Shown here: positions 44,105 through 63,624 of the stretch, piece after piece
How the letters are laid out: every line of letters starts with the position of its first letter
Position numbering within the stretch: the first letter of the stretch is position 1
DNA from: Nonomuraea roseoviolacea subsp. carminata
GTDB taxonomy: Bacteria; Actinomycetota; Actinomycetes; Streptosporangiales; Streptosporangiaceae
DNA length: 64,000 nt
Assembly (NCBI RefSeq): GCF_024172185.1
Contig: NZ_JAMZEC010000001.1
Span: forward strand, 248,001 to 312,000
Direction of reading: 5' to 3'
The notes under the pieces: model-generated
The model's input: the letters and a program-made list of their open reading frames with translations, nothing else
What the model was told of the DNA's origin: nothing
Database searches by the model: none
Made by a program: the position numbers and the translations under genes

Positions 44105-46213
44105 TCAGCTGATCCCGGCCTCCTTCATGTCGCGCAGCTCCCGCTTGAGCTCCTTGATCTCGTCGCGCAGCCGGGCCGCCACCTCGAACTGCAGGTCGGC
44201 GGCCGCCTGGTGCATCTGCTCGGTCAGCGACTCGATCAGCGACTCCATCTGCGCCCGCGGCATCTCGCCCGCGATGGCCTTGGCGTGCTGGCCGGCCTGC
44301 TTGGCGGCGAAGCCGGGCACCGGCGCCTTGCCGCGCGACTGCTGCCGCCCGCCGCCCATGAGCTGCTGGGTGTCGGCGTCCTCGCGCTGCAGCGAGTCGA
44401 GGATGTCGGCGATCTTCTTGCGCAGCGGCTGCGGGTCGATGCCGTTGGCCTGGTTGTAGGCGACCTGCTTGGCCCGGCGCCGGTTGGTCTCGTCGATGGC
44501 CCGCTCCATCGACGGCGTGATCTTGTCGGCGTACATGTGGACCTGGCCCGAGACGTTGCGGGCCGCGCGGCCGATCGTCTGGATGAGCGAGGTCTCCGAG
44601 CGCAGGAAGCCCTCCTTGTCGGCGTCGAGGATGGCCACCAGCGACACCTCGGGCAGGTCGAGGCCCTCACGCAGCAGGTTGATGCCGACGAGCACGTCGA
44701 ACTCGCCGGTGCGCAGCTCGCGCAGCAGCTCGATACGGCGCAGCGTGTCGACCTCGCTGTGCAGGTAGCGCACCCGGATGCCGAGCTCCAGGAGGTAGTC
44801 GGTGAGGTCCTCGGCCATCTTCTTGGTCAGCGTGGTGACCAGGGCGCGCTCGTCGCGCTCGGCCCGCTCGCGGATCTCGTGGACCAGGTCGTCGATCTGC
44901 CCCTTGGTGGGCTTGACGACCACCTCGGGGTCGACCAGGCCGGTGGGGCGGATGACCTGCTCGACGACGTCGCCCTTGACCCGGCCCAGCTCGTACGGGC
45001 CGGGCGTGGCCGACAGGTAGACGGTCTGGCCGATGCGCTCCAGGAACTCCTCCCACTTCAGCGGCCGGTTGTCGAGCGCGGACGGCAGCCGGAAGCCGTG
45101 CTCGACCAGGGTGCGCTTGCGGGAGGCGTCGCCCTCGTACATGGCGCCGATCTGCGGCACCGTCTGGTGCGACTCGTCGAGGACGAGCAGGAAGTCCTCG
45201 GGGAAGTAGTCGAGCAGCGTGTTGGGGGCGCTGCCGGGCTCGCGGCCGTCCATGTGCCGCGAGTAGTTCTCGATGCCGGAGCAGGTGCCGATCTGCCGCA
45301 TCATCTCGATGTCGTACGTGGTGCGCATGCGCAGCCGCTGCGCCTCCAGCAGCTTGCCCTGGCGCTCCAGCTCGGCGAGCCGGTCGGACAGCTCGGCCTC
45401 GATGCCGCGCACGGCCGCCGTCATGCGCTCCTCGCCCGCGACGTAGTGGGAGGCGGGGAAGATGTAGAGCTCCTCGTCCTCCGTGATGACCTCGCCGGTC
45501 AGCGGGTGCATGGTGGACAGCTTCTCGATCTCGTCGCCGAACATCTCGATGCGGACGGCGAGCTCCTCGTACTTCGGGATGATCTCGATCGTGTCGCCGC
45601 GCACCCGGAAGGTGCCCCGCGTGAAGGCGAGGTCGTTGCGGGTGTACTGCATGTCGACGAGGCGGCGCAGCAGCCGGTCGCGGTCGATGTCCATGCAGAC
45701 GCGCAGCCGGGTCATGCGGTCGACGTACTCCTGCGGCGTGCCCAGGCCGTAGATGCAGGACACCGAGGCGACCACGATGGTGTCGCGGCGGGTGAGCAGG
45801 GAGTTGGTGGCCGAGTGGCGCAGCCGCTCGACCTCGTCGTTGATCGAGGAGTCCTTCTCGATGTAGGTGTCGCTCTGCGGGACGTACGCCTCGGGCTGGT
45901 AGTAGTCGTAGTACGACACGAAGTACTCGACGGCGTTGTTGGGCAGCATCTCGCGCAGCTCGTTGGCGAACTGGGCGGCCAGCGTCTTGTTGGGCTGCAT
46001 GATGAGCGCGGGGCGCTGCAGCCGCTCGATCAGCCACGCGATGGTGGCGGTCTTGCCCGTGCCCGTGGCGCCCAGCAGCACGCTGTCCTTGGCCCCGGCC
46101 GTGACGCGGCGCTCCAGCTCGGCGATGGCCGTCGGCTGGTCGCCCGAAGGAGTCATCTCGGTGACGACCTCGAAGGGCGCCACCTTCCGCTGCAAATCAG
46201 TGACCGGTCGCAT
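44105..46213 (-). CDS. uvrB: UvrABC excinuclease subunit B
   Basis: The 702-residue DNA-repair helicase-like protein verifies lesions for nucleotide excision repair. It shows Walker [14 protein letters not shown], the beta-hairpin [21 protein letters not shown], Walker [10 protein letters not shown], helicase motif TIGRAARN and the C-terminal UVR domain that binds UvrC ([28 protein letters not shown]). Length is standard. Start ATG 46213 begins [17 protein letters not shown], as in homologues. It converges with the membrane-protein gene 9 bp away and is divergent from the SPFH operon. Confidence 0.97.
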
Positions 46214-46347
46214 GCTGCCCACTGTAGGTCGCGCCACCGACAGAACCGCCACGCGGCCTGCCCCGGCGTACGGGGGCCGCGCTGCAAGCGAATAGCAAGT
46301 CGTACCCGATACGGTCGAAACCGCCTGTAGCGGAAAAGGAAGGTGCT

Positions 46348-50008: not shown

Positions 50009-50125
50009 CCCGCACCGCGGAGGGAGGGGGCCACGGCACCCTCCCTCCCGCGTGGTGGCACGGGCTTGGGACGATCGTTACCATGGCGCTCGGGGACTGA
50101 ACGATCGTCGGATGCGGGGCCAGCG

Positions 50126-53089: not shown

Positions 53090-54289
53090 TCAGGAAGTGG
53101 TGACGAGCGCCCAGACCGTGACGAGCAGCCCGACGACGGCGAGTCCGGCGCCGGTCCCGAGGAAGCGGCGCATCGGCACGGGCACGTCGTGGCGCCGGCA
53201 CGACTCGAACCACAGCAGCGTGGCCAGCGAGGCCCAGGGGGTGATGACGGGGGCCACGTTCGTGCCGACGAGCAGCGCGAGGAGCTGGTCCTGCTGACCC
53301 GAGGGGATGACCTGCTCGACGGCCTTGTACGCGGGCAGGTTGTTGATCGCGTTGGCCAGCCCGCCGCCGACGGCGGCCGTGCGGTACGGGTCGGGGGTGT
53401 CGCCCAGCAGCAGGCTCATGAGGTCGGCCAGGCCGTACCGGCTGAGGGTGGGCACCACGAGGAACAGGCCGGTCACGAAGATGAGCAGCTGCCAGGGGAT
53501 CAGGCTCCACCTGAGCCGCCCGCGGTCGCGCACGGCGTAGGCGGCCACGACGATCAGCGCCGCGGCGGGGGCGGCGACGCCCACGTCCACCTTGAGCAGG
53601 AGCGCCACGATGAACAGGACGCAGGCCGCGGACGAGGCGGCGAACAGCACGCGGTCGCCGACGGGCTCCAGCAGCGGCGGCGTGTAGCGCAGGTCGCGGC
53701 GCTGACCGCGGCGCCAGTAGAACACCCACAGGAACACCATGGTCACGGCGATGGAGGCGATCTGCGGCGCCCACATGCGGGCGGCGAACTCCTGGGCGTT
53801 CAGGCCGATCTTCTGCATGCCGAGCAGGTTGGTGAGGTTGGAGACCGGCAGCAGCAGGCTCGCGGTGTTGGCCAGCCAGATCGTGGTCATGGCCAGGGGC
53901 AGCGGGGCGATGCGGGCCTTGGGCGCCAGGGCCAGCATGACCGGGGTGAGCAACACCGCAGTCGTATCAAGATTCAGAAATATCGTGACAAAAGAGGCGA
54001 AAGCCGTGCAGAGCAGGAAGAGGGCGACATAGTTACCGCGGCCGAGCACCGCCATCCGCGCCGCGATGACGTCGAAGACCTGAGCCTCCTTGGTCAGCTC
54101 GGCCAGCACGATGATCCCCACCAGGAACACCAGCAGGGGTCCGATGTCGTCCATGCTCTCGGCCGCCTCGCGCAGCGGCAGGAGCCCGGTCGCCACGAAC
54201 AGCACACCGAGCGCCAGCAGGCCGATCCTGATCCAGTCGAGCACGCCGAGACGCCGCCACACCCGACGATGATCGCACATCGCCTCCAA
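53090..54289 (-). CDS. ArsB/NhaD-superfamily (SLC13-like) ion permease
   Basis: The 399-residue protein has about 11 membrane segments and the ion-transporter superfamily features ESMDDIGPLLVFLVGIIVLAEL, NLDTTAVLLTPVMLALA, NTASLLLPVSNLTNLL and the late NAINNLPAYKAVEQVI with GTNVAPVITPWASLATLL. These two N-rich hairpins form the substrate site for arsenite, sulfate, Na+ or dicarboxylate. No arsenic-resistance genes are adjacent, so the ion is unknown. The start is set at ATG 54289; GTG starts further in (54244, 54262) would widen the very small 30-bp gap to the divergent STAND gene. Confidence 0.84.
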   Translation of the reverse strand: MEAMCDHRRVWRRLGVLDWIRIGLLALGVLFVATGLLPLREAAESMDDIGPLLVFLVGIIVLAELTKEAQVFDVIAARMAVLGRGNYVALFLLCTAFASFVTIFLNLDTTAVLLTPVMLALAPKARIAPLPLAMTTIWLANTASLLLPVSNLTNLLGMQKIGLNAQEFAARMWAPQIASIAVTMVFLWVFYWRRGQRRDLRYTPPLLEPVGDRVLFAASSAACVLFIVALLLKVDVGVAAPAAALIVVAAYAVRDRGRLRWSLIPWQLLIFVTGLFLVVPTLSRYGLADLMSLLLGDTPDPYRTAAVGGGLANAINNLPAYKAVEQVIPSGQQDQLLALLVGTNVAPVITPWASLATLLWFESCRRHDVPVPMRRFLGTGAGLAVVGLLVTVWALVTTS

Positions 54290-54319
54290 AACGCCGACGC
54301 CGCGAGGGATACTGAGCAG

Positions 54320-57300
54320 ATGTCACGCGACGGCAGGCCGACCGAGATCTTCGTCAGCTACTCCCCCGCCGACACGGCCTGGGCGACCTGGATCGCGTGG
54401 GAACTCGAAGCCGCCGGCTACCGGACCATGATCCAGGCGTGGGACTTCGTGCCCGGCACGAACTTCATCGACTTCATGGACCGCGGCGTCAGCGAGGCGC
54501 ACCTCGTCGTCGCCGTGCTGTCGCGCAACTACCTCACCTCCCGCTACGGGCGCCTGGAGTGGCAGGCCGCGCTGCGCGCCGACCCCGACGACCCGTCGCG
54601 CAAGCTGGTCACGATCCGGCTGGAGGACGTCCATCTGGAGGGTCTGCTGTCCACCATCACCTGGGTCGACCTCCTCGGCGTGACCGACCCCGACCAGGCG
54701 CGGGCGCGGCTGCTCGGCCGCGTCGGCGAGGCGCTGGCCGGCCGGGCCAAGCCCGACGTGCCGCCCGCCTTCCCCACCTCGGCCCAGGCCGGCGCGCCGG
54801 CGCCCGACCCGACCCTGCCGGCACCGGCCGAGCGCTCCCGGGCCCGCCGCACGCCGGTGACCGCGCCGAAGTTCCCGCCCGCGGCCGGGCCCGGGCACCG
54901 GCGCGAGTCGCTGAGCGTCCTGCACATCGGCGGGCCCCGCTTCGGCCGGGCGCTGCCCGACCCCGGCGAGCCGTTCACGCCCGAGGACATGCAGGCGCGC
55001 ATCTGGGCCGACCTCACCTCGATGTACGACCGGGGCATGCCGCGGCCCGACCTCATGGTGGTCAGCGGCGATCTGACCGAGTCGGGCAGCCTCGGGCAGT
55101 TCGCCCAGGCCACCCGGTTCGTGACCGACCTGCGGCTGCTGCTCGGGCTGGAGCCGCACCGCCTCGTCCTCGTGCCCGGGCCGCGCGACGTCACCAAGGC
55201 CGCGGCCAGCGCCTACTTCCTCACCTGCGAGGCCGACGACGTCAGCCCGCAGCCGCCGTACTGGCCGAAGTGGCGCCACTTCGCGGGCCTGTTCGACGAG
55301 GTCTACCAGGGCCTCGACGACCGGGTCTTCGACGGCGGGCAGCCGTGGACGCTCTTCCAGGTGCCCGACCTGAAGGTGGTCGTGGCCGGGCTCAACTCGA
55401 CCATGGCCATGAGCCACCTGGAGCGCGACGCGTACGCGCAGCTCGGCGAGGCGCAGGCGGCCTGGTTCGCCGAGCGGCTGCGGCCGTACGAGGAGAGCGA
55501 GTGGCTGCGGCTCGGCGCGATGGGCCACCCGCCGGCGGCGCTGCGCGACGCGCCCACGTTCGAGCGGCTGCTCGCCCACCGGCTCAACCTGCTCTTCCAC
55601 GGCACCGGACGCGACCCGGCCGGCGCGGCCGACGGCGAGGTGGCCCTGGCCGCGCCCCGGCCGGGCCGCCACCAGGTCGTCGAGATCACGCCCGGCGGCA
55701 TCCGCACCTGGCTGCCCGACCGAGAGCCGGTGAAGGCCACGCGGAGCTGGCGGGCCGCCCGGGCGCCGTTCGCCGGCGAGGCCCCGCAGGTGCCGCGCCC
55801 CCGCCAGGAGCCGCCGGAGCGCGAGCCCAGCCCGGTCGAGCTGCTGCTCGACCGGATCAGCGAGGTGTGCGAGGCCCGGCACGAGCGCGCGCGGATCCGC
55901 CGCTTCCCCACGCACCTCGTCGTCACCCATCCCGACGACGGGTTCGTCCGGCTGACCATGATCGGCGCGCACGTGGGCCGGGTGGACGAGGAGGCCGCCG
56001 AGGCGTTCGCCCGGCAGGCCCACGCGGCCGGGCTCCAGGGCGAGCTGGTCTACCAGGGGCCGCCGCCCGAGCGCGCGCTGCGCGACACGTTCGTGCGCCG
56101 AGGGGTCCTGCTGCGCAGCTTCACCGAGTTCCAGGGACTGCTCGACCTGTCCGGGTACGTCGCCGAGCAGACCGCCCGGCTGACCGGCGACCGGCGCTAC
56201 CCGCCCGGCCTCTACGTGCCCCAGCGCTACCGCGAGCTGGACCGCCCCGGTCACCCGGTCAGGGACGGGCTCACCGACGAGCTGATGCGGCTGCTCGCCA
56301 GCGACCACGGCCGGTTCCTGCTGCTGCTCGGCGACTTCGGGCACGGCAAGACGTTCGCGCTGCGCGAGCTCGCCCGGCGCCTGCCGGCCGAGCTGCCGCA
56401 CCTGACGCCGCTGTTCATCGAGCTGCGGGCGCTGGACAAGGCCCACTCGGTGGACGCGCTCGTGGCCGCCCACCTCGCCACCCACGGCGAGGAGCTGATC
56501 GACCTCAAGGCGTTCCGCTACCTGCTGCGGCAGGGGCGCATCGTGCTGCTGTTCGACGGCTTCGACGAACTGGTCGCCCGGCTCACCTACGACCGGGCCG
56601 CCGACCACCTCGCGACCCTGCTCGCCGCGGCCGAGGACAAAGCGAAGATCGTGGTGGCCAGCCGCACCCAGCACTTCCGCTCGCACGGCCAGGTGCTGCG
56701 CTCGCTCGGCGAGATGGTCGGCGTGCTGCCGCAGCGGCGGCTGCTGGCCGTCGAGGACTTCTCCCGCGACCAGATCCACTCCTACCTGGTCAACCGGTAC
56801 GACGACGGCGACGAGGCGGCGGCGCGCATGTCGCTGCTGGAGAGCATCGAGGACCTGCTCGGCCTGGCGCAGAACCCGCGCATGCTGAGCTTCATCGCCG
56901 ACCTCGACGCCGACCGGCTGCGCACGGTGGCCCGGGCTCGCCACACCACCAGCCCCGCGCAGCTCTACCAGGAGATCCTCACCTCCTGGCTGACGTTCGA
57001 GGCGCGGCGGGCGGCGCTGCCCGGCTCGGCCGCGGGCCTGACGCTGGAGGAGCTGTGGCGGGCGATCACGGCCCTGGCGCTGCGCCTGTGGGAGTCGAAC
57101 GAGGCGCTGCTCGGCGTGGAGGAGCTGACCGAGTTCGCCGAGACGCTGACGGACCTGGCGGGCGGGCAGATGTCGGCGGCGCACGCCGCGTACGCGATGG
57201 GCTCGGGCAGCCTGCTGGTGCGCACCGACGAGGGCATGTTCGGGTTCATCCACTCCTCCGTGATGGAGTGGCTGGTCGCCAGGCACGTCGCCGACACCCT

Positions 57301-59914
57301 CGACGACCCGGTGACGCTGGCGCGCGGGCCGCTGACGCCGCTGAGCGTCGAGTTCCTGTGCGACCTGGCCGACGTGCGGGCCCTGCGGGCGTGGGTGAAC
57401 GACCCGCCGCCCGGGCGGCACGCCGGCGCCAACGCCGTCAAGATCGCCGGCCGGCTGCGCACCCCGGCGCAGTCCGATCTGCGCGGCGCCAACTTCAAGG
57501 GCGAGGACCTGTCGGAACGCGACCTGCAGGAGGTCGACCTGACCGGCGCCGACCTGTCGGAGACGACGCTGGCCCGCACCAACCTGTCCAGGGCCGTCCT
57601 GCGCGACGCCCGGCTCACCGGCGCGCGGCTCGACGGCGCCTCGCTGGCCGGGGCCGACCTGCGGGGCGCCGACCTGTCCGGCACCCGCCTGGTCCACACC
57701 GACCTGAGCGACGTGACCGCCGACGGCGCCCGCTGGCACCGCGCGGCGCTCATCCACGTCACCGGCACGCTGCCCGACCTGCCGGGCGCCGCCGTGGTGC
57801 CCGGCACGCCGGTCGAGGTGCAGCTCGCGCCCGCCGCCATCGGCGTCCCGTACGGCTACCACTTCCAGACCAGCCGCCTGCCCGAGCCGATCGCCTACAG
57901 CCACGACGGCACCACGATCGCCATCGGCAACGAGGACGGCGGCGTGCTGCTCTGCGCGGGCGGCGCGCCCGTGCGCACCCTCCAGGGCCACCACGGCCGC
58001 GTCTACGCCGTCTCCTTCGCCGGCGACCTGCTCGCCTCCGGCGCGAGCGACGGCAGCGTGCTGCTGTGGGACGCGGTGACCGGCACGCTGCTGCGGCGGC
58101 TGGAGGGCCACCCAGACGGCGTCTGGCCGGTACGCCTCAGCCCCACCGGCGAGCTGGTGGCGGCGGGCGGCGGCGACGGCGTCGTGCGCGTCTGGGAGAC
58201 CGCCACCGGCCGCGAGGCCCACCGCCTGGCCGGGCACCGGGCGCCCGTCTACACGGCCTCGTTCGGGCACGCGGAGCTGGTGACCGGCGACTCGGCGGGC
58301 GTCGTACGGGTCTGGGACCTCGGCTCCGGCGAGATGACGGCCACCCTGGACGGCCACGACGGCGCGGTCTACCGGGCGGTCCACAGCCCCGACGGCACCC
58401 TGCTGGCCACCGGCGACGAGGCCGGCACGGTGCGGCTGTGGGACACCGCGACGTGGACCCTGCGCCGCGCCCTCACCGGTCATGCCGGGTCGATCTACTG
58501 CGTCGCGTTCTCCCCCGACGGCACCCTGCTGGCCACCGGCGACACGGCCGGGGCCGTCCGCCTGTGGGACCCGGTCGCGGCCGAGCCGCGCGGCCCGCAC
58601 ACGATCCACTCCGCGAGCGTCTACCAGGTGACGTTCAGCCCCGACGGCCGCACCATCGCCAGCGGCGACTCCAACGGCGTGGTCCGGCTGCAGGAGGTCG
58701 GCGCCACGACCCGCGTCGAGCTGACCGGCCACCGCAGCTCCGTCTGGCCGTTCGCGTTCCGTCCCGACGGCCAGCAGCTCGCCACCAGCAGCAACGACGG
58801 CACGGTCCGCCTGTGGGACCCGGCGAGCGGCAAGTGCCAGCGGATTCTGCGCGGGCACGGCCGGCGCATCTCGTCGGTGCGCTTCAGCGCCGACGGCACC
58901 ATGCTGGCCACCAGCGGCAACGACGGGGTCGTGCGCGTGTGGGAGGCGGCGACCGGGCGGCGGCTGCGCGAGTTCACGGGCGCCTCCGACCGGCTGGTCT
59001 CGGCGCTGTTCTCGCCCGCCGGGCCGGTGCTCGCCACCTCCAGCAACGACGGCGGCGTCCACTTCTGGAACGCCACCACCGGCGAGTACGAGCGCGAGCT
59101 CAACGCCGAGACCGACCACGTGTGGGCCGAGGCGTTCAGCCCCGACGGCACCCTGCTGGCCACGGCCAACGACGACGACAGCGTGCGCGTCTGGTACCGC
59201 GCGACCGGCCGCCTGGTCAGCAACCTGGCCGACCACCGGGGCCGGGTCCGCTCGATCGCGTTCAGCCCCGACGGCCGCCACGTGGCGACCGGCTGCGACG
59301 ACCGGCTGGTCCGCGTCTGGCACGTCGAGTCCGGCGGCCTCGTCGCCACCCTCGACGGGCACAAGGACCGGGTGTACGCGGTGGTCTTCTCACCGTCCGG
59401 CCGCTACCTGGCCAGCGCCAGCAACGACGGGACGGCCCGGGTGTGGGAGCTGCGGCCCGGCCAGCCCTGGCAGCCGGTGCTGCGGCACACCCTGGCCGAG
59501 CACGCCGGGCGGCTGTGGTCGGTGGCCTTCGACCTGACCGGGGAGCGCCTGGCGACCGCGGGCGACGACCTGACCGTGCGCGTGTGGGACACGGTCACGG
59601 GGCGGCTGCTGCACGCACTGAAGGGGCACACGCGGAGGGTGTGGTCGGTGGCCTACAGCCCGTCCGACCCCGACCTGCTGGCCACGGCCGGCGACGACGG
59701 CGTGGTGATCCTCTGGAGGGGGGAGGACCGCCACGCCACGCTTCTGGGTTTACCGGAAGGCTGGGCGGCGCTGTCGCCGAGCGGCCGGTACAAGGTGGAG
59801 GGAGAGTTGGCGGGGCAGTTCTGGCACGTGATCGGGATGTCCCGGTTCGAGCCGGGAGAGCTGGATCCGTACCTGCCGGACGTCCGGCCCGTACCCCTCG
59901 ACGCGCCCTTCTGA
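54320..59914 (+). CDS. TIR-(dead) metallophosphoesterase-NACHT-pentapeptide-WD40 STAND protein
   Basis: The 1864-residue protein has, in order: a TIR domain (8-140; EIFVSYSPADTAWATW, candidate NADase Glu80 in YGRLEWQAAL) and a Pro-rich linker. A calcineurin-like domain (about 196-455) follows, keeping GDLTESG (250-256) but lacking other metal ligands. After an unassigned region (505-630) comes NACHT (660-800) with Walker A GDFGHGKT (671-678) and LLFDGFDE (Walker B, 743-750). A helical region leads to pentapeptide repeats (1050-1140) and about 15 WD40 repeats (1190-1805). The end is a conserved cap (GWAALSPSGRYKVEG...FWHVIGMSRFEPGELD). By analogy with STAND immune receptors, WD40 would sense, NACHT oligomerise, and TIR degrade NAD. 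Codon 1811 is TTA. Start ATG 54320 lies 30 bp from the divergent permease. Confidence 0.92.
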   Translation: MSRDGRPTEIFVSYSPADTAWATWIAWELEAAGYRTMIQAWDFVPGTNFIDFMDRGVSEAHLVVAVLSRNYLTSRYGRLEWQAALRADPDDPSRKLVTIRLEDVHLEGLLSTITWVDLLGVTDPDQARARLLGRVGEALAGRAKPDVPPAFPTSAQAGAPAPDPTLPAPAERSRARRTPVTAPKFPPAAGPGHRRESLSVLHIGGPRFGRALPDPGEPFTPEDMQARIWADLTSMYDRGMPRPDLMVVSGDLTESGSLGQFAQATRFVTDLRLLLGLEPHRLVLVPGPRDVTKAAASAYFLTCEADDVSPQPPYWPKWRHFAGLFDEVYQGLDDRVFDGGQPWTLFQVPDLKVVVAGLNSTMAMSHLERDAYAQLGEAQAAWFAERLRPYEESEWLRLGAMGHPPAALRDAPTFERLLAHRLNLLFHGTGRDPAGAADGEVALAAPRPGRHQVVEITPGGIRTWLPDREPVKATRSWRAARAPFAGEAPQVPRPRQEPPEREPSPVELLLDRISEVCEARHERARIRRFPTHLVVTHPDDGFVRLTMIGAHVGRVDEEAAEAFARQAHAAGLQGELVYQGPPPERALRDTFVRRGVLLRSFTEFQGLLDLSGYVAEQTARLTGDRRYPPGLYVPQRYRELDRPGHPVRDGLTDELMRLLASDHGRFLLLLGDFGHGKTFALRELARRLPAELPHLTPLFIELRALDKAHSVDALVAAHLATHGEELIDLKAFRYLLRQGRIVLLFDGFDELVARLTYDRAADHLATLLAAAEDKAKIVVASRTQHFRSHGQVLRSLGEMVGVLPQRRLLAVEDFSRDQIHSYLVNRYDDGDEAAARMSLLESIEDLLGLAQNPRMLSFIADLDADRLRTVARARHTTSPAQLYQEILTSWLTFEARRAALPGSAAGLTLEELWRAITALALRLWESNEALLGVEELTEFAETLTDLAGGQMSAAHAAYAMGSGSLLVRTDEGMFGFIHSSVMEWLVARHVADTLDDPVTLARGPLTPLSVEFLCDLADVRALRAWVNDPPPGRHAGANAVKIAGRLRTPAQSDLRGANFKGEDLSERDLQEVDLTGADLSETTLARTNLSRAVLRDARLTGARLDGASLAGADLRGADLSGTRLVHTDLSDVTADGARWHRAALIHVTGTLPDLPGAAVVPGTPVEVQLAPAAIGVPYGYHFQTSRLPEPIAYSHDGTTIAIGNEDGGVLLCAGGAPVRTLQGHHGRVYAVSFAGDLLASGASDGSVLLWDAVTGTLLRRLEGHPDGVWPVRLSPTGELVAAGGGDGVVRVWETATGREAHRLAGHRAPVYTASFGHAELVTGDSAGVVRVWDLGSGEMTATLDGHDGAVYRAVHSPDGTLLATGDEAGTVRLWDTATWTLRRALTGHAGSIYCVAFSPDGTLLATGDTAGAVRLWDPVAAEPRGPHTIHSASVYQVTFSPDGRTIASGDSNGVVRLQEVGATTRVELTGHRSSVWPFAFRPDGQQLATSSNDGTVRLWDPASGKCQRILRGHGRRISSVRFSADGTMLATSGNDGVVRVWEAATGRRLREFTGASDRLVSALFSPAGPVLATSSNDGGVHFWNATTGEYERELNAETDHVWAEAFSPDGTLLATANDDDSVRVWYRATGRLVSNLADHRGRVRSIAFSPDGRHVATGCDDRLVRVWHVESGGLVATLDGHKDRVYAVVFSPSGRYLASASNDGTARVWELRPGQPWQPVLRHTLAEHAGRLWSVAFDLTGERLATAGDDLTVRVWDTVTGRLLHALKGHTRRVWSVAYSPSDPDLLATAGDDGVVILWRGEDRHATLLGLPEGWAALSPSGRYKVEGELAGQFWHVIGMSRFEPGELDPYLPDVRPVPLDAPF

Positions 59915-59947: not shown

Positions 59948-60043
59948 CGGCGGGCGCCCGGGGCGGGGTCATCTCTGGTCACGGCCTCGGCCCTGTCTCC
60001 GGGCGCGCCTGCCGACGTGCGGCGGGCGCCCGGGGCGGGGTCA
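59948..60043. repeat. Direct duplication of the 3' end of the pentapeptide-protein gene
   Basis: A 24-base sequence (CGGCGGGCGCCCGGGGCGGG plus GTCA) occurs at 59948-59971 and 60020-60043, period 72. The sequence following each copy is also similar (CTCGTCGCGGCCCCGGCCCT against CTGGTCACGGCCTCGGCCCT). The right copy contains the stop codon of the minus-strand gene; the left copy is a diverging spare. It is the second gene in the window with a duplicated tail. Confidence 0.75.
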
Positions 60044-61084
60044 CTTCTCGTCGCGGCCCCGGCCCTTCGGACGGCCGCCGCGCCGCCCGGCGGGCGCGTC
60101 CTGACGGCCGCCGCGCCCCCGCCCGCGCGGCTGGGCGTCGCGTCCTGTGCTCCGGGCGGGGGCGCTCTCCGTGGCGCTCCAGTGGGCGGGACGGGTGAGC
60201 CCGGGCGGGATGCGGGTGGCCGCGTCGCCGCGGGCCGCGTTGAGCTGGGGCTGCGTGAGGAAGACGCTGCCCGTCAGGTCGGCCCCGGACAGGTCGGCCC
60301 CTCTGAGGTCGGCCCCGATGAGGTCGGCCAGCCGGAGGTCCGCTCCCCTGAGGTCGGCCCCGATGAGGTACGCGCCGCGCAGGTCGGCGCCGTACAGGTC
60401 GGCTCCGCGCAGGCGCGCCCCGATGAGGTCGGCGCCCCGGCGGTCCTTCTTCCGGTCGCGCCCGCCCTGACCGCCCGCCCGCGCGGGCGCCCGGACGAGC
60501 TCGCTCACGCGCAGCAGCAGCGGGTTGACCCGCCCGCGCCACTCGGCCACGTCGAGACCCGTCAGCTCCTCCGGGCCCAGCCGGGTGAGGGCGTCGATCT
60601 CGTCCCTGGCCCGCAGGACCTCCTCGCGCACCGGCGCCGCCCCGGGCAGCGTCAGGGCCTCGGTGAGGTACCACAGCAGCTCGTGCAGGTGCCGTACGAC
60701 CGGGAACACCGCGAACATCCGCCCGGCCGTGCCCGGCTCGCTCCGCCAGTCGTGCCCGCCGAAGGTGACCTGGGAGACCTTCTGGCCCGCGCCGAAGCAG
60801 TCGTACACCGTGCACCCCGGGAACCCCTCGTCCCGCAGGTGCCGGTGGATGCCGCAGCGGAAGTCGTCCTGGAGGTTGTGGCAGGGCCGGCCCGCGTCCT
60901 TGTCGACGGCGAAGTCGGCGGACCTGGCGAACGGCAGCGCGACGCAGCACAGGGCGAAGCAGCTCGCGCAGTCGGCCCGCAGGTCCTGCGGTCGCATACC
61001 GGCGCCCGGAGCTTCGGCGGCGACCTCAGCCGCGGTGCCCTGAGCCCGGGTGTCCTGAGCCCGGGTTTCCTCCCCGCCCGTCAT
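60041..61084 (-). CDS. Cys-rich pentapeptide-repeat protein
   Basis: The 347-residue protein has an N-terminal Cys-dense domain (CASCFALCC, C in GRPCHN, FRCGIH, GCTVYDCFGAGQKVSQVTFGG), likely a metal or Fe-S site. A helical middle is followed by about 12 pentapeptide units (ADLIGARLRGADLYGADLRG and on; about 225-275) that form a right-handed beta-helix, and an Arg/Gly-rich tail. This architecture recurs in streptomycetes without assigned function. Start ATG 61084, or 60997 (MRPQDLR), which would drop a Glu/Ala-rich head. It converges with the STAND gene, whose product also has pentapeptides; a shared role is possible but unproven. Confidence 0.82.
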   Translation of the reverse strand: MTGGEETRAQDTRAQGTAAEVAAEAPGAGMRPQDLRADCASCFALCCVALPFARSADFAVDKDAGRPCHNLQDDFRCGIHRHLRDEGFPGCTVYDCFGAGQKVSQVTFGGHDWRSEPGTAGRMFAVFPVVRHLHELLWYLTEALTLPGAAPVREEVLRARDEIDALTRLGPEELTGLDVAEWRGRVNPLLLRVSELVRAPARAGGQGGRDRKKDRRGADLIGARLRGADLYGADLRGAYLIGADLRGADLRLADLIGADLRGADLSGADLTGSVFLTQPQLNAARGDAATRIPPGLTRPAHWSATESAPARSTGRDAQPRGRGRGGRQDAPAGRRGGRPKGRGRDEK

Positions 61085-61121: not shown

Positions 61122-62336
61122 CTACCCGCCCGGTGAGCGGTGGGACTCCGAGACGCCCAGCCGTTCCCGCAGCGCCCGGACGCCGGAGGCCAGGACGGGC
61201 GGGACGGTGATCAGGAGGGTGAGGGCGTCGGCGAGCCGGGTCGCCGCCGCGTCGGCCGTCAGCCAGAGCACCGGCGGGCCGAGCACCGCGCAGACGCGGG
61301 CATCGGTCGCGAGCACCCACCGCAGCGCCCGCACGGCCCGTGCGCGGGCACCGCGCCAGGCCGCCGCACCCCAGGCACCCACCGCGGCGATCCCCTGGCG
61401 GACGGCGGTCCGCGGGTCTGCCGCGGTCCATGGGTCTCCGGCGGCGACCCCTTGACCCGCTGCCGTCCGCCCCGCTGCCGTCCGCCCCGCTGCCGTCCGC
61501 CCTGCGACCGTCCGATCCGCGACCGTCCGATCCGCGACCGTCGTCCGGCGCCGCAGGACGATCGCCATGCGGGGCATGCCCCTGAGCAGTCCCGCCACGA
61601 AACGCGCACGCTCCAGGCCCCCGTCCGCCCGGCGCAGCTCTCCCAGCCACTCCTCCAGCCACCGGCCACGCGAGCCGGAAGGCAGCATGATCGCGGCGGC
61701 CTCCACCACGCCGAAGGAGACCCGGACGCCGTCGCGGGCCAGGGCCGACAGCCTCGCCTCGGCCAGCCTGCGCAGCTCGCGCTCCATCCCGCGCATCCCC
61801 AGCCGCGCCGCGGCGGGCGCGAACACCCGCAGGGTCTGCAGGCTCTTGGCGCGCTGCTTGGCCGGGGAGATCCAGCGCATCGTGCGCTGGTTGTGCAGCC
61901 GGTCGGCCAGTTTCAGCGTCAGCACCCGGGCGTCGGCGCGCCGCTCCCACTCCACGGCCGTGCGCCCGGCCTCCGCGTCCGCCTCCAGCCGCCCCAGGTC
62001 CCGCACCAGGGCGGCGATCCGCGGGCCGAACTCCCTTTCCAGGCCGGCCGCCGGGCAGGCGGTGTCGCGGAGCACGTCATGGAGCAACGCGGCGCACAGC
62101 AGCTCGTGGTCCGCGCCGAGGTCGGCGAGGATCGCCGCCACCGCGACGGGGTGGGTGATGTACGGATCGCCGCTGTGGCGGTTCTGGTCCCGATGCCAGA
62201 ACGCGGCGGTCGCGTGGGCCCGCTCGACCACCCGGAGCTGCTCGGCGTCCAACCGCCCGGCCAGACGGGTCCGTAACCGCTCGAACGACCCCTCGCGGGC
62301 CGAACCGCCGCCGCGGCGAATCGTCAGGACGCTCAT
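61122..62336 (-). CDS. RelA/SpoT-like HD-domain protein with internal repeats, TTA codon
   Basis: The 404-residue protein begins with an HD hydrolase domain like the (p)ppGpp hydrolase: RAHATAAFWHRDQNRHSGDPYITHPVAVAAILADLG, then ELLCAALLHDVLRDT and VLTLKLADRLHNQRTM. No synthetase, TGS or ACT domains follow, so it could be a stand-alone hydrolase. The second half has a 15-bp tandem repeat giving TVADR/TAAGR units and ends with hydrophobic helices. The start is ATG 62336, overlapping the small ORF stop (ATGA). Codon 21 is TTA (62274-62276). Confidence 0.82.
   Translation of the reverse strand: MSVLTIRRGGGSAREGSFERLRTRLAGRLDAEQLRVVERAHATAAFWHRDQNRHSGDPYITHPVAVAAILADLGADHELLCAALLHDVLRDTACPAAGLEREFGPRIAALVRDLGRLEADAEAGRTAVEWERRADARVLTLKLADRLHNQRTMRWISPAKQRAKSLQTLRVFAPAAARLGMRGMERELRRLAEARLSALARDGVRVSFGVVEAAAIMLPSGSRGRWLEEWLGELRRADGGLERARFVAGLLRGMPRMAIVLRRRTTVADRTVADRTVAGRTAAGRTAAGRTAAGQGVAAGDPWTAADPRTAVRQGIAAVGAWGAAAWRGARARAVRALRWVLATDARVCAVLGPPVLWLTADAAATRLADALTLLITVPPVLASGVRALRERLGVSESHRSPGG
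61456..61545 (-). repeat. 15-bp in-frame tandem repeat in the HD gene, about six units
   Basis: About six units encode TVADR (first copies) and TAAGR (later ones). Limits are approximate. The repeat lies between the HD domain and the C-terminal hydrophobic region, so it lengthens a linker. Confidence 0.7.
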
Positions 62337-62989: not shown

Positions 62990-63592
62990 TCAGCCGCGGG
63001 CGGCGCGGCGCAGGAGGTCGTCCCACACCTCGTCGACCCGGGCCTGCAACGCGTCGAGCGAGCCCTCGTTGTCGATCACGATGTGCGCGACCGCGAGCCG
63101 CTCCTCGCGGGTGGCCTGGGCGGCGATGCGGGCCCGGGCGTCGCTCTCGGCCATGCCGCGGTGCTCGGCCAGGCGGGCGACGCGGGTCTCGTCGGAGGCG
63201 TCCACGACGATCACCACGTCGTACATCGGGGCCAGCTTGTTCTCGGCCAGCAGCGGCACGTCGTACACCACGATCGCGTCCTCGGCGGCCTGCCCCTGCA
63301 GCTCGGCGACCCGCTCCCCCACGAGGGGATGAACGATCGCGTTGAGTGCGGCGAGCCGGTCGGGGTCGCCGAAGACGATGGAGCCGAGCTTCTCGCGGTC
63401 GAGCGAGCCGTCGGCGCGCAGCACCTCGTCGCCGAACGCCGCCTGCACCCGCGCCAGGCCGGGCGTGCCCGGCTCGACGACCTCACGGGCGATCTTGTCG
63501 GCGTCGATCACCATGGCGCCGTGGGCGGCCAGCCGCCGCGACACCTCGCTCTTGCCGGATCCGATGCCGCCGGTCAGTCCGATCTTCAGCAC
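62990..63592 (-). CDS. coaE: Dephospho-CoA kinase
   Basis: The 200-residue enzyme performs the last step of CoA synthesis. Its P-loop is [22 protein letters not shown], followed by [36 protein letters not shown] and the lid-side R-x-x-Q region ([23 protein letters not shown]). Start taken as GTG 63592 (VLKIGLTGG, as in homologues); TTG 63598 adds two residues. GGAGGG lies upstream at longer spacing. The distance to uvrB fits the actinobacterial coaE-uvrB neighbourhood. Confidence 0.95.
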
Positions 63593-63624
63593 CCGCAAAG
63601 CCTATCGGCCCTCCTGCCCGATGC

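Follow-up and report, generated by a model that had tools for sequence, protein, structure and literature searches.

Which role is played by a single giant actinobacterial protein that carries a TIR domain, a phosphoesterase fold, a NACHT NTPase and two kinds of repeats? Most NLR-like proteins known from bacteria are phage defences with a patchy distribution. The gene lies in Nonomuraea roseoviolacea subsp. carminata, in a window of 64,000 nucleotides (the whole stretch of DNA that was analysed). A sequence-only reading of the window had put it forward as a candidate undescribed immune receptor, encoded alone. With a probability of roughly 0.6, we read it as a resident, chromosomally fixed NLR-like receptor whose TIR domain would break down NAD+ on activation and whose phosphoesterase once served that chassis as an effector. 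Our best guess at its function is an NLR-like, NAD-consuming cell-death switch that senses a conserved, perhaps host, molecule.

The receptor gene and its domains

The features of the gene are as follows.

54308..54313, plus strand: GATACT, a -10-like element 6 nt upstream of the receptor ATG
54320..59914, plus strand: the whole receptor gene, 1864 aa (TIR, dead MPE, NA-iREase3, NACHT, pentapeptide, WD40 propellers)
54347..54715, plus strand: TIR domain, residues 10-132
54557-54559, plus strand: codon of Glu80, the candidate NADase residue, within the TIR domain
54896..55756, plus strand: calcineurin-type phosphoesterase (MPE) fold with its metal site lost, residues 193-479
55841..56149, plus strand: NA-iREase3, a NACHT-associated inactive restriction-endonuclease-like domain, residues 508-610, Pfam PF22739
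56138..57454, plus strand: NACHT NTPase with helical arm, residues 607-1045
56330-56353 and 56543-56569, plus strand: Walker A and Walker B, within the NACHT domain
57470..57745, plus strand: pentapeptide-repeat beta-helix, residues 1051-1142
57902..59722, plus strand: WD40 repeats, residues 1195-1801, which form two propellers in the model

The single open reading frame of 1864 residues at 54320-59914 exists as first described, and Glu80 and Lys677 lie at the positions given for them. All five domains named in the sequence-only reading were confirmed with Pfam, and NA-iREase3 (residues 508-610) had been overlooked. TIR_2, NACHT (4e-12), pentapeptide and WD40 are clear matches, and Metallophos is a weak one (0.032). 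The match to PF22739 (E 8.6e-33; 113.9 bits, cut-off 27) places the protein in the NA-iREase3-NACHT family. Ten further matches to the protein in its own genome are all confined to the WD40 part. The predicted structure is of moderate quality (pLDDT 73.9, pTM 0.47); in this model the TIR domain resembles SARM1/SPARTA, the NACHT arm resembles NLRC4, and the MPE resembles Rv0805/SMPDL3A. Sequence and model both place the TIR domain at the N-terminus and the pentapeptide and WD40 repeats at the C-terminus, which is an NLR-like layout. By this layout, the TIR domain would act as the effector and the repeats as the sensor.

The position of the GATACT element supports 54320 as the start. Elements of this type lie 6-7 bases ahead of the start codon in 58 of 77 sequences (the window counted). 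GATACT itself is present in 53 of the 77 upstream stretches versus 1 of 229 control stretches, and it is absent from the Streptomyces rows. The receptor transcript would be leaderless, judging from this spacing.

Relatives and their distribution

The GTDB genome collection was scanned with receptor residues 191-1047, and 178 relatives were confirmed in Nonomuraea, Thermoactinospora, Streptosporangium, Microbispora, Planotetraspora, Herbidospora, Actinomadura, Streptomyces and other taxa. The nearest named relative is Nonomuraea rhodomycinica, with 98% identity over the core, and N. gerenzanensis carries the gene too. Architecture was read in the best 80 of the 178 relatives (L012-L091); row totals of 77 and 81 include the window protein. 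A comparison of domain order among homologues had been suggested from the outset. It returned the same six domains in unchanged order at all 76 loci with an intact 5' end among the best 80 of 178, and the four TIR-less loci among them are truncated by a contig end. The six-domain orthologue extends to Actinomadura and Streptomyces. The order was thus not confined to this strain, as its description as an undescribed arrangement might suggest; the claim of novelty stands insofar as a literature search found no description of it. This constancy is evidence on the orthologue (best 80 of 178) rather than on the family as a whole.

Among the 54 same-genus genomes that were listed (same genus first, with 171 matchless genomes outside the list), 51 carry PF22739: 49 with one match, and G196 and G611 with two. 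In the family, PF22739 is found in 150 of 341 genomes. The NACHT part is present in 33 of 36 searched genus members, with a single match apiece. When 150 genomes were drawn from the family, a NACHT match was found in 40, and 35 reached the orthologue level (E 1e-130 or better). The wider NA-iREase3-NACHT family occurs in 37 of 394 genomes of the class; in a second family, 24 of 35 genomes carry it.

The second chassis copy of G196 (L198, G196:C2:180500-195000) is ~68% identical to the window protein over NA-iREase3-NACHT. TIR and MPE were both searched for in this copy and neither was matched; its front is an additional STAND-like module with a P-loop (GQPGAGKS, by eye), so that the 2367-residue frame holds two NTPases. 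G055 (L101-L104) has five NA-iREase3 matches, including copies with a TIR and a live MPE and with a TIR and a half-decayed MPE.

Conservation of the TIR and NACHT domains

Glu80 is invariant (77/77 rows), and the TIR domain of the window protein combines the fold with the catalytic Glu of TIR NADases. The catalytic Glu by itself is not proof of NADase activity. In the wider TIR set of the NA-iREase3-NACHT family, this residue is kept in 12/12, 5/6, 6/6 and 10/13 sequences of four groups. The TIR is also the slowest-evolving domain, with 93% mean identity within Nonomuraea. Median dN/dS was 0.10 for the TIR, 0.25 for the dead MPE, 0.26 for NACHT, 0.27 for the pentapeptide part, 0.33 for WD40, 0.35 for NA-iREase3 and 0.41 for the first linker (NG86, 100 random pairs among Nonomuraea loci, a crude measure at this GC).

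The NACHT Walker motifs had been called intact, and this bears out: the Walker A lysine (K677) and the Walker B acidic residues (D746-E750) are kept in 81/81 rows, as in an NLR-like, NACHT-clade STAND NTPase. Taken together, the sequences support an architecture of the NLR type, in which the TIR looks competent and the phosphoesterase is dead.

A fixed chromosomal neighborhood

The receptor gene is surrounded by the following genes, and an IMPase-like gene is also among its neighbors.

44105-46252: UvrB
53090..54289, minus strand: ArsB/CitMHS-type transporter, the divergent constant neighbor
60041-61084, minus strand: distinct pentapeptide-repeat protein, its gene convergent with that of the receptor, with a match in 5/80 loci
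61122-62336, minus strand: 404-residue protein with an N-terminal HD domain like RelA/SpoT (NCBIfam 1.8e-43, ~150 residues)
62990-63598: dephospho-CoA kinase CoaE

The transporter gene is divergent and within 1.5 kb of the receptor at 74 of 74 testable loci. The IMPase gene lies within 6 kb in 65 of 72 loci, and coaE lies within 5 kb in 47 of 62. Since coaE was not found in the fetched flank of the Streptomyces and Herbidospora rows, the site is identical there on the transporter side only. Among the 80 loci, the RelA/SpoT-like protein has a flank match only in L012 and L017.

Between pairs of rows, receptor protein distances co-vary with those of CoaE (rho 0.83, slope 1.09, 57 rows), the transporter (rho 0.86, slope 1.09, 77 rows), the IMPase (rho 0.86, slope 0.95, 69 rows), the protein at 50066 (rho 0.89, slope 0.77, 70 rows) and UvrB (rho 0.73, slope 2.04, 20 rows). 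These correlations and slopes point to a shared history and to the rate of an ordinary enzyme, like that of CoaE and faster than that of UvrB.

Absences of the receptor are mostly clean. Thirteen genomes have the transporter only, and sites were fetched for 12 of these (G088 left out); at 11 of the 12, the CoaE match lies 69-400 bp from the transporter match. In L112 (G203:C63:89000-106000), ~1 kb between the transporter and coaE holds receptor remnants (NA-iREase3 at 55% and WD40 at 72% identity), with loss in progress. In G029, of the Nonomuraea group and without the receptor, the sequence is joined cleanly next to a transporter copy that is more distant. The genus members G011 and G021, also without the receptor, lack the transporter as well.

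The phage collection, searched with the receptor, gave no match, and the sole match above 60% identity in the plasmid collection is a chromosome-sized Nonomuraea record of 11.85 Mb. Neither a variable site, nor transfer, nor carriage by a mobile element was found for the orthologue, with its neighbors scanned with Pfam and NCBIfam. The fixed neighborhood, co-varying distances, mostly clean absences and lack of a phage copy thus argue for a resident, dispensable, vertically inherited gene, whose setting does not look like that of a typical mobile defence system.

We give little credence to a mobile antiphage STAND system of the conventional sort, directly triggered by a phage protein as ligand, which is where the framing of the sequence-only reading pointed. 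The grammar of TIR, NACHT and repeats does fit known antiphage STANDs, and some far relatives are multi-copy, such as the five matches in G055. However, such a system is at odds with an orthologue that adjoins the same transporter wherever this could be tested, with the phage and plasmid searches, and with presumed ligand-side positions (below) that are conserved rather than diversified.

The constant transporter raises the question of whether the TIR is instead a non-enzymatic scaffold paired with this protein. In addition to its place at all 74 testable loci, a transporter orthologue is found in 33 of 35 family genomes with a receptor orthologue (E-value limits set by the analyst). Against such a receptor-transporter pair, the receptor is missing from 13 of 46 genomes that have the transporter alone, and the single-contig genome G096 has the receptor without the transporter. 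The IMPase, further away, co-occurs too (31/35, counting a split match in G090), and shared neighborhood inheritance thus accounts for the pairing. Glu80, moreover, is invariant. We regard this explanation as about as unlikely as a mobile system. At the G096 locus (L120, G096:C1:1676500-1690500), where the transporter is unmatched, the TIR matches are split over two frames, which would reflect a frameshift or a sequencing error.

The WD40 propellers

The standard layout of WD repeats places the usual ligand side of a propeller, and sides were assigned from this layout rather than from the model. Presumed ligand-side positions vary less than other loops, with 0.23 versus 0.77 bits in 31 Nonomuraea rows and 0.58 versus 1.42 bits in 77 rows. 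Most of these positions vary strongly between blades. We take the low variation to point to a conserved ligand; structural constraint may account for some of it.

A conserved ligand could also be an internal signal. The receptor would then be a developmental or stress-related cell-death or dormancy switch of filamentous actinomycetes, with the same biochemistry. We consider this possible but unlikely. The conserved presumed ligand side speaks for it, as do PF22739 in 51/54 of the listed same-genus genomes, the conserved core neighborhood, the CoaE-like rate with distances that track those of CoaE (rho 0.83) and of the transporter (rho 0.86), the lack of phage copies and a plasmid copy only in one chromosome-sized record. 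The receptor is dispensable, however, as 12 fetched transporter sites are without an intact copy, and DS-8, the nearest proven relative in arrangement, is antiphage (PMC13092281).

The inactive phosphoesterase and its relatives

The two-metal ligand set of an MPE, which we take to be D-x-H/Q, GD, GNH, H and GHxH (partly read off live relatives), is missing from the window protein, which thus lacks the site of an active calcineurin-type phosphoesterase. The dead MPE keeps 0-2 of the 8 scored metal-ligand positions in 81/81 rows; the motif-1 Asp, motif-3 Asn and motif-5 HxH are found in 0/81. The former motif 1 is now a conserved G-P-x-F-G-R (Gly205 81/81, Pro206 79/81, Arg210 81/81), and the dN/dS of the dead MPE is comparable to that of NACHT.

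A dead enzyme inside the chain was among the features named in the sequence-only reading. The loss of the metal site stands, and the dead enzyme is accounted for by relatives with a live MPE. Chassis were sought in 56 family loci, of which L173 and L175 yielded none. Of 54 frames, some of them cut, 49 have the pentapeptide part and 45 have the WD40 part; the two repeat scaffolds thus recur in most of the wider family as read here. The fronts vary. Some relatives have a live MPE alone, others have a TIR or a protease ahead of a live MPE, others have the same ahead of a dead MPE, and others have a TIR alone.

An MPE at the tip is live in 5 of 6 cases (L096, L097, L105, L192, L197) and dead in L196, with L196 and L197 judged by eye. 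Behind a TIR, outside the 81 rows, it is live in 3 of 25 (L102, L103, L160), and behind a trypsin-like protease it is live in 1 of 3 (L098). This tally omits L163 and L189, which run off their contigs; L198 has no MPE match, and L199 and L200 are unscored. L188 (another TIR kind, by eye) and L187 (TIR in another frame) are counted as TIR-stacked. Metallophos is matched at 1.7e-15 in L096 and 2.3e-11 in L103, the two live-MPE relatives scanned. A clade of 13 tree rows has a TIR with the MPE unmatched, meaning no BLAST match at 1e-4. In L157 (G462:C55:30500-37645), a SEFIR/TIR-like domain precedes a second TIR (by eye) on the same chassis, possibly another stacking without an MPE.

Live MPEs are scattered over four regions of the tree, along which at least five switches between live and dead are needed (tree without outgroup; L104, L106, L172, L174, L184 and L185 omitted from trees). 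As regain of a lost metal site is unlikely, the live MPE is probably the ancestral state. Mean TIR identity between groups is 31-40%, below the 40-46% of the chassis, which leaves room for more than one TIR gain. Stacked effectors and MPE decay are associated by Fisher test when kinship is ignored (p 0.002); an independent-pairs test of decay following stacking, with 2-3 pairs and L199 entered as dead, was not significant. L196, with its decayed MPE at the tip and no TIR, is a counter-example.

In our reading, the dead MPE is an effector that has been retired and sits behind a newer TIR. A further reading, which we offer tentatively, is that of a bacterial NLR encoded in the core genome that stands guard over some conserved molecule belonging to the cell itself. 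It would display an effector succession caught in the act, from stacking through take-over to the rewriting of the metal site. In such a succession, a new TIR or protease would be stacked before a working MPE, and the old enzyme would become a conserved non-catalytic module, later perhaps deleted. All four front-end stages occur in living relatives on one chassis.

Proposed mechanism and significance

The steps from ligand to cell death are modelled on NLRC4, Apaf-1 and the biology of TIR NADases. At rest, the NACHT NTPase would be held closed by the WD40 propellers. The conserved propeller side would then meet its ligand, a conserved molecule that may be a component of the host which infection or stress has disturbed. 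NACHT would exchange its nucleotide and assemble a wheel, as in NLRC4 and Apaf-1. The TIR domains would be brought together, resulting in NAD+ breakdown or an ADP-ribose signal, and the hyphal cell would arrest or die. The MPE, presumably an earlier effector of the chassis, would now serve in structure or regulation, with purifying selection preserving its fold. Phage defence genes are not usually inherited with the core genome, which counts against this reading.

A vertically inherited NLR-like receptor in a housekeeping neighborhood, its presumed ligand side conserved, makes testable whether bacteria have guard receptors for self or stress signals. The same family makes testable how NLR-type receptors swap effectors while staying functional. 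Its natural series (live MPE, TIR with live MPE, TIR with dead MPE, and TIR alone) renders the hand-over measurable in existing proteins.

Comparison with known systems

A literature search, with subscription papers and supplements outside its reach, found no description of the architecture, the fixed neighborhood or a stacked dead effector. Against the PADLOC-DB 2023 library, the window protein gave only partial matches, to TIR/SEFIR and repeat models. Where animal STAND receptors of the Apaf-1/NLRC4 type carry a CARD, the window protein has a TIR and what is probably a retired phosphoesterase; it also differs from them in having a pentapeptide helix that separates NACHT from WD40. It belongs to the actinobacterial NA-iREase3 (PF22739)-NACHT family and shares its chassis, whereas other members have live MPE, trypsin-like plus MPE, or TIR-only fronts.

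Like bNACHT25 and other bacterial NACHT antiphage proteins, the receptor is centered on NACHT. In setting, the receptor differs by its conserved core neighborhood. bNACHT25 detects phage via host DnaJ, according to PMC12169576, and this is a precedent for a guard-type trigger, which would fit the conserved propeller side.

DS-8 (DefensePredictor, NF053861) is an MPE-NACHT protein in which both active sites are required for phage defence, according to PMC13092281. The likeness lies in a phosphoesterase and a NACHT in a single protein. In DS-8 the phosphoesterase is catalytically required, whereas in the window protein it is dead and is accompanied by TIR, NA-iREase3, pentapeptide and WD40 parts. 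The window protein scores 15.4 bits against an NCBIfam cut-off of 790 for DS-8, with the ligand positions lost. The MPE of its relative L096 is recognisably related in sequence to DS-9A and DS-8, with matches to DS9_1 (4e-29) and DS8 (7e-12) that are both under the cut-off. Finally, TIR and calcineurin domains are presented as alternative N-terminal effectors of STAND NTPases in PMC8195603. Unlike the STAND conflict proteins as described there, the window protein stacks both, with the inner one dead.
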